A stretch of DNA of 26,325 nt from a virus. The DNA is taken from positions 1-26,325 of IMG/VR virus record IMGVR_UViG_3300047666_000093, one strand, 5' to 3'. Below, one piece after another: positions 2,546 to 15,420 of the stretch. The number at the start of each line of letters is the position of its first letter. Positions within the stretch are counted from its first letter, which is position 1. The notes under the pieces were generated by a model that was not told the origin of the DNA, ran no database searches, and worked only from the letters and a program-made list of their open reading frames with translations. The position numbers and the translations under genes are program-made.

Positions 2546-2590
2546 CGACTCAATTCTAATAAATAGAAATATACAAACAGGATTGAGTCG
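2546..2590 (+). promoter_or_regulatory. RNA stem-loop occluding the ribosome binding site of the tail gene
   Basis: Bases 2546-2557 can pair with 2579-2590 as a continuous 12-bp RNA stem (11 Watson-Crick pairs and one U-G at 2555/2581) with a 21-base loop. The 3' arm contains the AGGA ribosome binding sequence (2579-2582) and abuts the ATG at 2591, so translation should be blocked on any transcript entering from upstream. The late-type promoter sits in the loop, so an RNA started there would lack the left arm. T4 late genes such as e and soc use this arrangement. Confidence 0.75.
2558..2565 (+). promoter_or_regulatory. Candidate late promoter (AATAAATA)
   Basis: AATAAATA matches 7 of 8 bases of the T4 late -10 element TATAAATA, which is recognised by the gp55 sigma encoded at 6566. 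Transcription would begin about 6-7 bases downstream, near 2571-2573, giving a leader of roughly 20 bases before the ATG at 2591. The short box alone occurs by chance in AT-rich DNA (for example inside gene 45); its place in the loop of the occluding hairpin is what makes it credible. Confidence 0.6.
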
Positions 2591-3079
2591 ATGCCAGAAA
2601 TTATTAACAATTACTTATCTCCAACTAATTTTACGATTAGTATAGAGAAACTCCCGAACGTAGAATTCTTTACACAGAAGCTGCAAATTCCAGATGTCAC
2701 TGCAACTGCTACATCGTTAGGTACTCCTTTATCAACCCTATACGAATATGGTGATCGTATTGAGTACGGTGAAATGACAACTACGATGATCCTCGATGAG
2801 AATATGAATAACTATAAAGAAATTCTCAATTGGATAGAAGGCTATGCCGCTCCTGAAAGATCAACGCAAAACAAAATATACACCGCAACTGGTCATGAGT
2901 CCGATATCATCGCGACCATTACCAACTCTCACAAAAATCCAAACATAAGATTCGTATTTAAGAATTGCTTCCCAACCTCTTTGGGTGGTGTTTCTCTTGA
3001 TGTTAATGTTACTGATGTAGCATATGCAACAACGACAGTTACCTGGAGATACGATACCTTTACGATGGAACAACTATAA
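2591..3079 (+). CDS. Tail tube-like structural protein (T4 gp19 superfamily), 162 aa
   Basis: Probably a virion protein of the gp19-like tail tube fold. In T4 that fold makes the tail tube (gp19) and the tube-initiating baseplate proteins gp48 and gp54. Visible signatures are SIEKLPNVEFFTQKLQIP near residues 17-34, then TPLSTLYEYGDRIEYGE and the central helix LDENMNNYKEILNWIEGY, a layout I associate with tail-tube or baseplate-hub proteins of marine T4-like phages. There are no other structural genes nearby, so it is a late gene among early genes. It alone here has a late-type promoter and an occluding hairpin (2546-2590), which fits a structural role. Whether it is the main tube monomer or a minor tube or baseplate component is unresolved. 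Confidence 0.72.
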   Translation: MPEIINNYLSPTNFTISIEKLPNVEFFTQKLQIPDVTATATSLGTPLSTLYEYGDRIEYGEMTTTMILDENMNNYKEILNWIEGYAAPERSTQNKIYTATGHESDIIATITNSHKNPNIRFVFKNCFPTSLGGVSLDVNVTDVAYATTTVTWRYDTFTMEQL

Positions 3080-6565: not shown

Positions 6566-7099
6566 ATGGCTAAGAAAAAGAACTACGTAAACAATAAAGA
6601 TCTCCTTGCCGCATTAATCGAATATAAGAGTAAGTGCGTCGAGGCAGAAGAATGTGGAGATAAGAATCCACAAGTGCCCGACTACATTGGCAAGTGCATT
6701 ATGTTAATTGCACAACGATTAGCAACACGACCAAATTTTAGTGGATACATGTATAAGGAGGAAATGGTCTCAGACGGAATCGAGAACTGTCTACAATATA
6801 TACATAACTTTAATCCAGAGAAATCGCAAAATCCGTTTGCTTACTTCACTCAAATCATTTGGTATGCATTCCTCCGTAGAATCTCGAAAGAGAAGAAGCA
6901 GATGTATATTAAATTCAAAGCATCACAAAGACAAATGTATGACAACGAAGTATTTGATTCTACTGGTGATGCCGTGACCGCTAATATATTACCTGATTAC
7001 ATTAATGAATTCATTGATGATTTTGAAGGCAAGCTTAAAGCGGCAAAATTAAAGAACGCTGCTGAGGCAGAAGAAAAGAAGAACAACGCAGCAGAGTAA
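6566..7099 (+). CDS. 55: Late-transcription sigma factor gp55, 177 aa
   Basis: Minimal sigma factor that redirects host RNA polymerase to TATAAATA-type late promoters, with the sliding clamp as activator. The hallmark is a sigma-region-2-like block: MVSDGIENCLQYIHNFNPEK, then PFAYFTQIIWYAFLRRI (about residues 93-109), a pattern shared with T4 gp55 and distantly with sigma-70 core-binding and -10 recognition helices. T4 gp55 is 185 aa. The C-terminus is alanine, lysine and glutamate rich (AAEAEEKKNNAAE) and differs from T4, where the C-terminal end contacts the clamp. AAAGGAG lies 12 bases upstream of the ATG. Its presence makes late-type boxes such as 2558-2565 meaningful. Confidence 0.92.
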   Translation: MAKKKNYVNNKDLLAALIEYKSKCVEAEECGDKNPQVPDYIGKCIMLIAQRLATRPNFSGYMYKEEMVSDGIENCLQYIHNFNPEKSQNPFAYFTQIIWYAFLRRISKEKKQMYIKFKASQRQMYDNEVFDSTGDAVTANILPDYINEFIDDFEGKLKAAKLKNAAEAEEKKNNAAE

Positions 7100-14460: not shown

Positions 14461-14931
14461 ATGAGAGAGCTTGGATATGTATTAGTTGGCTGCTCTGTAT
14501 TTGTAATCTTTTTTGTTGCATTCATATATCCGAACATTGAGCATAAAGGTCATCCACCTATTAACAACTGCACAGGCGAATGCTATAAGCAGTATGTTAT
14601 AGACAATGGTACAGTAGCAGAACAAATACAAGAAAAGAAAGCTATAGCAATAGCCAAAGCAGAGTCAGGCATAGTTGATGTGTTTGAACAAGCTAGAGGA
14701 GTATGGAGAGGTTGTGCAGGCTGTCACGGAGCAAAAGGTCAAGGCCAAGGTATGTTTCCTAAGTTAGCAGGACAAACTTCAGACTATATAGCAGGAAGAT
14801 TAAATGCTTACAGAAATAAAGAAAGAGTAGGCAGTAATAGTGCAATGATGTGGGGACAAGCCATGCCATTAACAGATAGACAAATAGAACAGTTAAGCAT
14901 GTTCGTACAAGAAGGATTTCCAGAAGAATGA
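14461..14931 (+). CDS. Membrane-anchored class I cytochrome c, 156 aa
   Basis: A mono-haem cytochrome c carried by the phage. An N-terminal hydrophobic helix (residues 5-23) should act as an uncleaved signal anchor, putting the rest in the periplasm. Haem attachment is CAGCH (85-89) in GVWRGCAGCHGAKGQGQG, followed by the c4/c5/c553-type block FPKLAGQTSDYI (99-110) and a distal region AMMWGQAMPLTDRQIEQL; M129 or M130 is the likely axial ligand, M135 an alternative. Host Ccm machinery would have to attach the haem. A linker with another cysteine pair (C37, C41) separates anchor and domain. L8-V9-G10-C11 resembles a lipobox, but the hydrophobic stretch before it is too short. AAAGGAG precedes the ATG. 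Isoleucine is ATA in 8 of 11 codons and all seven arginines are AGA, unlike the polymerase gene, which suggests later acquisition. Probable role: electron transfer to a terminal oxidase during infection (inference). Confidence 0.9.
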   Translation: MRELGYVLVGCSVFVIFFVAFIYPNIEHKGHPPINNCTGECYKQYVIDNGTVAEQIQEKKAIAIAKAESGIVDVFEQARGVWRGCAGCHGAKGQGQGMFPKLAGQTSDYIAGRLNAYRNKERVGSNSAMMWGQAMPLTDRQIEQLSMFVQEGFPEE

Positions 14932-15161
14932 AAGAGTTAAGAGACAGGTTGGTATATGCAATGAGTGCGCAGTACGCTGCAGCTATTCAAAAGCATAGTG
15001 TTAATATTGAGATACTATTAGAGAAAGGTGTTGGCGTTGCTGAACATCCTGATCTTATGGCAACTATTGATTCAGAGATAACTTTATTAGCAGAGGCAGA
15101 AGATAAACTGTCTACTCTACAAGGTCACTTTGAAAGAGCACCGGAACCGAGAGTAGTATAA
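14928..15161 (+). CDS. Small conserved phage protein, 77 aa
   Basis: Overlaps the cytochrome stop by four bases. Predicted all-helical: MKELRDRLVYAMSAQYAAAI, then KHSVNIEILLEKGVGVAEHPDL and a second helix from about residue 46 with acidic heptads (TIDSEITLLAEAEDKLSTLQ). The block NIEILLEKGVGVAEHPD matches a small protein I recall from marine T4-like phages, with no known role. There is no membrane segment or cysteine, so it is probably cytoplasmic and not a partner of the cytochrome. It is the last sizeable gene of the 13551 operon. Confidence 0.75.
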   Translation: MKELRDRLVYAMSAQYAAAIQKHSVNIEILLEKGVGVAEHPDLMATIDSEITLLAEAEDKLSTLQGHFERAPEPRVV

Positions 15162-15175
15162 CTTTCATGAATAAC

Positions 15176-15256
15176 GTCTCCTATCTGTATATATATTTTA
15201 TATGTAACAGAATTGTAACACAATTGTTGCATTGGAAACATCGCAATATAGGAGAC
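15176..15256 (+). ncRNA. Cloverleaf-like structured leader RNA covering a ribosome binding site
   Basis: An 81-base element folds by eye into a four-way junction with no unpaired junction bases. P1: 15176-15184 with 15248-15256, nine Watson-Crick pairs. P2: 15185-15194 with 15200-15210, ten pairs with one bulged A and one G-U. P3: 15211-15216 with 15220-15225, six pairs. P4: 15226-15230 with 15243-15247, five pairs (one G-U), then a 2x2 internal loop, two pairs and a GAAA tetraloop (15235-15238). The 3' strand of P1 holds the AGGAGA binding site of the peptide gene at 15263, so the fold should hold translation off. It lacks the TTCGA T-loop of a tRNA. It could be a riboswitch-like or protein-binding leader. 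Confidence 0.6.
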
Positions 15257-15262
15257 AATAAC

Positions 15263-15340
15263 ATGGCAAAAGCATTTAAAGCATTCCATAAGTTGATGAA
15301 GTCAGGTAGACTTCACAAAGTCATAAAGATATTAAGTTAA
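15263..15340 (+). CDS. 25-aa cationic amphipathic peptide
   Basis: A complete 25-codon frame with AGGAGA ending eight bases before the ATG. The product contains six lysines and one arginine, two histidines and no acidic residue; it starts MAKAFKAFHKLMK and ends RLHKVIKILS. Hydrophobic residues at 5, 8, 11/12, 17, 20/21 and 24 give an amphipathic helix pattern, interrupted by S14-G15. Such peptides often bind membranes or nucleic acid. A 7-bp perfect hairpin lies inside the coding sequence (15297-15303 with 15309-15315). No promoter is visible directly upstream, so it depends on readthrough from the 13551 operon, and its binding site lies in the P1 stem of the structured RNA. The function is unknown. 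Confidence 0.55.
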   Translation: MAKAFKAFHKLMKSGRLHKVIKILS

Positions 15341-15368
15341 TCTCATAAAGTAGTTGACATTCATAAAG
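15321..15368 (+). repeat. Three copies of TCATAAAG
   Basis: Identical octamers at 15321-15328, 15343-15350 and 15361-15368 (steps of 22 and 18 bases). The last lies in the spacer of the 15354 promoter and the second just upstream of its -35, so they could be operator half-sites. In AT-rich DNA a clustered triple octamer is unusual but not conclusive. Confidence 0.4.
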
Positions 15369-15382
15369 AACTGTTGTATAAT
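15354..15382 (+). promoter_or_regulatory. Early sigma-70-type promoter, 15421 operon
   Basis: TTGACA at 15354-15359, a 17-base spacer, TATAAT at 15377-15382. The base before the -35 is G rather than A, and the -10 is preceded by TTG as in the gene 43 promoter. Drives the 107-aa protein and the PD-(D/E)XK-like protein. Confidence 0.88.
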
Positions 15383-15420
15383 GGTACTATAAATTGATAA
15401 ACTGAATGGGAACATGTATA

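Follow-up and report, generated by a model that had tools for sequence, protein, structure and literature searches.

A probable T4 gene e-type delayed-translation switch upstream of a conserved micro-protein gene in an uncultured marine phage

A gene for a 25-residue peptide in an uncultured marine phage is probably governed by a switch that delays translation in the manner of T4 gene e, in which a late promoter sits within the very hairpin that masks the Shine-Dalgarno sequence (SD). The gene lies in a 26-kb metagenomic virus record, IMGVR_UViG_3300047666_000093, analysed here over its whole length of 26,325 nt and referred to as the window; window coordinates given below are those of its + strand. 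Read-through transcripts from upstream early genes would contain both arms of the closing helix P1, so that the SD would be buried and little peptide made. After replication, RNA polymerase with the phage gp55 would start at an octamer in the P1 loop, at about 15201, and the late RNA, devoid of the 5' arm, would expose the SD and allow the peptide to be made late. This type of switch is already known from phage T4, in a form that differs from the variant described here; the micro-protein family matches nothing in the protein libraries searched. The classic T4 timing device would hereby be extended to uncultured marine phages and tied to a conserved micro-protein family.

The leader RNA (15160-15270) folds in ViennaRNA with a minimum free energy of -29.5 kcal/mol. 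Dinucleotide shuffles average -15.4 (sd 2.9), which gives a z of -4.93, and 0 of 200 shuffles fold as well. The four helices proposed in a first-pass annotation are all recovered: P1 (15176-15184/15248-15256, 9 bp), P2 (15185-15195/15199-15210, 11 bp with one bulge, where 10 pairs had been counted), P3 (15211-15216/15220-15225, 6 bp), and P4 (15226-15230/15243-15247 plus 15233-15234/15239-15240, 5+2 bp), the last capped by a GAAA loop at 15235-15238. The minimum free energy structure accounts for 2% of the ensemble; in the centroid the four arms are retained and the junction is looser. Part of the low energy stems from palindromes in the DNA itself, namely the TGTNACA boxes described below and the AT-palindromic promoter octamer. 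A palindrome scan for TCTCCTAT..ATAGGAGA returned mostly chance-like matches. The 3' arm of P1, ATAGGAGAC (15248..15256), contains the SD AGGAGA (15250-15255), just as the annotation had placed it, and the 5' arm, GTCTCCTAT (15176..15184), provides the anti-SD strand directly 5' of the octamer. In the read-through RNA the SD and start are paired in silico, as in a T4 gene e-type hairpin. The accompanying proposal that loss of P1 would switch translation on gains support from this modelled masking of the SD of a conserved tiny gene.

Between the P1 arms lies the sole copy in the window of TATATATA (15188..15195), a putative gp55-type late promoter. The canonical TATAAATA does not occur in the window; in sister lineages (L266, L272-L282) it occupies the aligned position. 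TATAAATA is the known T4-type late promoter, found as NATAAATA in cyanophage S-PM2 (PMC2984593). Judged from the alignment, TATATATA may well serve as the late promoter in the window lineage, which encodes a T4 gp55-like late sigma factor (6566..7099; phrog_234, E 2e-63). In T4, genes e, soc, 49 and I-TevI have start regions masked by RNA helices, and the late-promoter transcripts of gene e, which lack the 5' strand, are well translated (PMC3014915). With these the leader shares a 5' arm upstream of the putative late promoter, the position of that octamer in the loop and the SD in the 3' arm, in addition to the T4-like late sigma factor. It differs in the octamer, in the sequences of 5' arm and loop, in the phased TGTNACA array that separates promoter and SD, and in its target, a 25-residue micro-protein.

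P1 might also be a constitutive SD-masking hairpin that has no internal promoter and yields either to a trans factor or to ribosomes translating the upstream gene. P1 does mask the SD, the octamer is a variant, and the upstream 77-aa gene (14928..15161; phrog_1811, unknown function) stops 14 nt 5' of P1. Such a hairpin is nonetheless quite unlikely: the octamer aligns with the canonical TATAAATA of the sisters, and only a few nt separate it from the 5' arm. A further frame (14461-14931) encodes a 156-aa protein with a CAGCHG haem-binding motif (cytochrome c-like), for which PHROGs holds no match.

The T4-type reading predicts that masking is relieved in the late RNA, which was taken as the RNA begun 5 nt after the octamer. 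Orthologous leaders were recognised via the 77-aa gene upstream. Opening the SD-AUG region costs more in the read-through RNA than in the late RNA in every ortholog scored. This difference (ddG) averages 5.1 kcal/mol over non-redundant orthologs, whereas 30 other TATAAATA-gene pairs from three related phages show a mean of 0.55 (sd 1.27, maximum 4.0; Mann-Whitney 2e-6). The size of the effect is comparable to T4, with 11-13 for gene e in the same calculation, 4.5 for the peptide gene of the window and 12 for its tail-tube gene. When the 5' flank was exchanged for 62 flanks taken from other late promoters, the native 15176..15184 arm of the window masked the start region better than 62/62 (p floor 1/63), and among the leaders of the peptide locus the native flank was best in 14 of 25 (p again at the 1/63 floor). 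The combined Fisher values of 2e-9 over 13 related leaders and 6e-6 with one per sublineage overstate independence, since orthologs share ancestry. T4 gene e itself reaches a p of only 0.063 in this test.

As the native flank is special in the swap test and the opening cost drops in the late RNA of every ortholog scored, these calculations support the view that complementarity between 5' flank and SD is maintained across orthologs, in a manner distinct from classical covariation. Arms that differ in sequence still pair, as in GUCUCCUAU/AUAGGAGAC, CUGUCUCCUA/UAGGAGACAG, UUCUCCUU/AAGGAGAA and GUUUUCUUUGU/ACAAGGAGAAC. Pairing is weak in several orthologs (L267, L280, L197, L198, L266, L251), and in L272-L278 the predicted late RNA is still fairly structured. 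Swapping arms between relatives gave no discrimination, as every arm looks like SD or anti-SD, and a contiguous-helix test returned p 0.01-0.1 for the strong cases and non-significant values for the others.

A second and stronger example of the same anatomy is found within the window at the tail-tube gene. Its leader hairpin (2546..2593) consists of a 12-bp helix, CGACTCAATTCT/AGGATTGAGTCG, with the late promoter TAATAAATA in the loop and the SD in the 3' arm, which adjoins the ATG at 2591. The fold has a z of -5.0, and two tail-tube relatives show a partial effect (ddG 7.1 and 3.7). A general hairpin rule for the late promoters of related phages was rejected, as most of them stand without such a hairpin.

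Does the whole cloverleaf, which the first-pass annotation had regarded as the functional unit, persist among relatives? Four leaders are identical to that of the window (L015, L022, L032, L061), a fifth (L007) differs by one leader base, and two near relatives (L005, L199) carry variants. All of these retain P1 and P2; in L005 the GAAA tetraloop is replaced by GAAC, and in L199 two P4 pairs are broken. Orthologous leaders have lost P2-P4 together with tetraloop and junction, and RNAalifold finds no common cloverleaf in an alignment of 14 orthologs, the sole pairs called joining two TGTNACA boxes. A conserved cloverleaf as functional unit was therefore rejected, with P4 and tetraloop already lost in the nearest variants. 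Nor did the compensatory changes hoped for in homologues appear: alignment-based counts gave no two-sided change, near relatives being too alike and distant ones shifting register. The peptide frame, on the other hand, accompanies the RNA in the relatives L005 and L199 and is found well outside this group.

The four tightly packed helices of the window sequence would suit a cloverleaf riboswitch that binds a ligand and controls the peptide. Against such a riboswitch stand the lack of conservation of both cloverleaf and loop sequences and the absence of Rfam and tRNA matches, which together make it highly improbable. The Downstream-peptide and glnA glutamine RNAs likewise combine a structured RNA 5' of a tiny ORF with a marine phage setting; the leader differs from them in having no conserved core in relatives and no Rfam match, with none to the Downstream-peptide family even at E<=10, in agreement with the annotation, which saw no conserved sequence of that motif here. 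ARAGORN found no tRNA or tRNA-like match in the leader, and Rfam-class, tRNA and riboswitch identities were all rejected for want of matches. Nothing in the leader points to a ligand-binding core. A late transcript starting inside the hairpin is the simpler opener of P1.

What orthologs maintain is the late-promoter octamer, the TGTNACA boxes and the pairing of the segment upstream of the octamer with the SD. Invariant columns of the 14-sequence alignment are mainly the octamer and the boxes, with a few single positions elsewhere, and in orthologous leaders a segment rich in pyrimidines runs up to TATATATA or TATAAATA and is followed by the boxes and the SD, in this order. In the window three TGTNACA-type boxes follow each other with an 11-nt period (15203-15209, 15214-15220 and 15225-15231, the last being TGTTGCA), and two TGTNACA boxes are invariant or nearly so in orthologs. 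Over the fetched loci, 46 TGTNACA pairs are spaced at 11 nt versus 0-5 at other spacings, a count that is not neutral, as some loci were fetched by patterns related to the leader region. Triple arrays precede many phage sigma70 early promoters, and in the window the array comes after the putative late promoter. Phased boxes near late promoters or upstream of early ones are seen at 15203-15231 and in L347, L359, L421 and L542-L657.

The boxes have the geometry of the Pho box (consensus described in PMC3131613), namely direct 7-bp repeats with a 4-bp spacer and an 11-bp period, and TGTCACA boxes occur in some arrays. Unlike the Pho box, the leader boxes read TGTNACA and follow a putative late promoter. 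The four bacterial assemblies tested contain hardly any strict arrays and did not establish a link to a Pho regulon; SAR86A has a single strict array, 5' of its copy of the peptide gene, and the two other arrays found are on phage-like contigs. Located in the initially transcribed region, the phased boxes probably act as a DNA operator and would thereby provide an additional level of control.

One could go further and regard promoter and Pho-box-like operator as the only conserved unit, with the RNA hairpins as by-product of palindromic boxes and an AT-rich promoter, and P1 as incidental. The invariant columns, the RNAalifold pairs confined to two boxes, and the arrays without P1 that precede other genes and early promoters all agree with this. 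P1, however, lies outside the boxes and its pairing beats other late-promoter flanks in most orthologs, and the tail-tube hairpin has no boxes at all. We consider a DNA-only unit unlikely and prefer the T4-type switch with the operator as an addition.

The peptide gene, MAKAFKAFHKLMKSGRLHKVIKILS (15263..15340; ATG 15263, TAA 15338-15340), belongs to a family of FHKxMKxGR micro-proteins. Described at first as a cationic, amphipathic peptide of 25 residues, its product indeed has that length and a net charge of +7; its amphipathicity is moderate only (muH 0.44, equalled by 20% of composition shuffles). Over the first 18 codons, window and L199 differ by six synonymous and one non-synonymous codon changes. 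Directly 3' of the gene, and 5' of the gene at 15406, lies a perfect sigma70 promoter, TTGACA-N17-TATAAT (15354-15382).

The family consensus, FHK[FLMI]MKxGR[LI]xKV, was found at no fewer than 123 distinct sites among the loci fetched, for which a degenerate pattern was run on IMG/VR; nearly all are on phage contigs, plus one SAR86 scaffold. A set of 84,980 prokaryote genomes contains four family sites only. Two of them (L518, L519) share their contigs with T4-like phage genes, a third (L517) comes from a Pelagibacter MAG contig, and the fourth (L516) lies on a SAR86A scaffold of 806 kb. Locus L516 encodes MKTFKTHLSRFHKFMKSGRIYKVWNSMAS at about 1200-1300, downstream of the sole strict array of the SAR86A assembly. 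A survey of 100 genomes from the order to which SAR86A belongs turned up no other copy. The family has no Pfam match, and PHROGs matched it only at E 0.05-0.15. With tblastn, three of its peptides gave a single, chance-level match and no relative in a phage isolate collection, and no member of the family is present in Pelagibacter phage HTVC008M. By the libraries searched, the family appears to be unannotated and new.

Some family genes seem to be timed by other means. Among the matches listed with an upstream late octamer, 15 of 34 have exactly TATAAATA-N5-ATG (L325, L331, L337, L341 and others). In T4, a 5-nt gap puts +1 at the A of the AUG, and these genes are predicted to give leaderless late mRNAs. 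Tentatively, marine T4-like phages, and with them a SAR86 scaffold, may share a widespread and undescribed late micro-protein that is silenced early by lineage-specific devices: here a late-promoter hairpin, elsewhere a late promoter 5 nt from the ATG that yields a leaderless mRNA, often with a phased TGTNACA array. Strict late timing by several independent means would suggest a peptide that is harmful or useless early, for example one acting in lysis, packaging or DNA binding. In L272-L278, L359 and L409, a small protein of about 93-114 aa with a signal-peptide-like start is encoded 3' of the late promoter or array, and in L278, L359 and L409 the FHK peptide gene comes after it.
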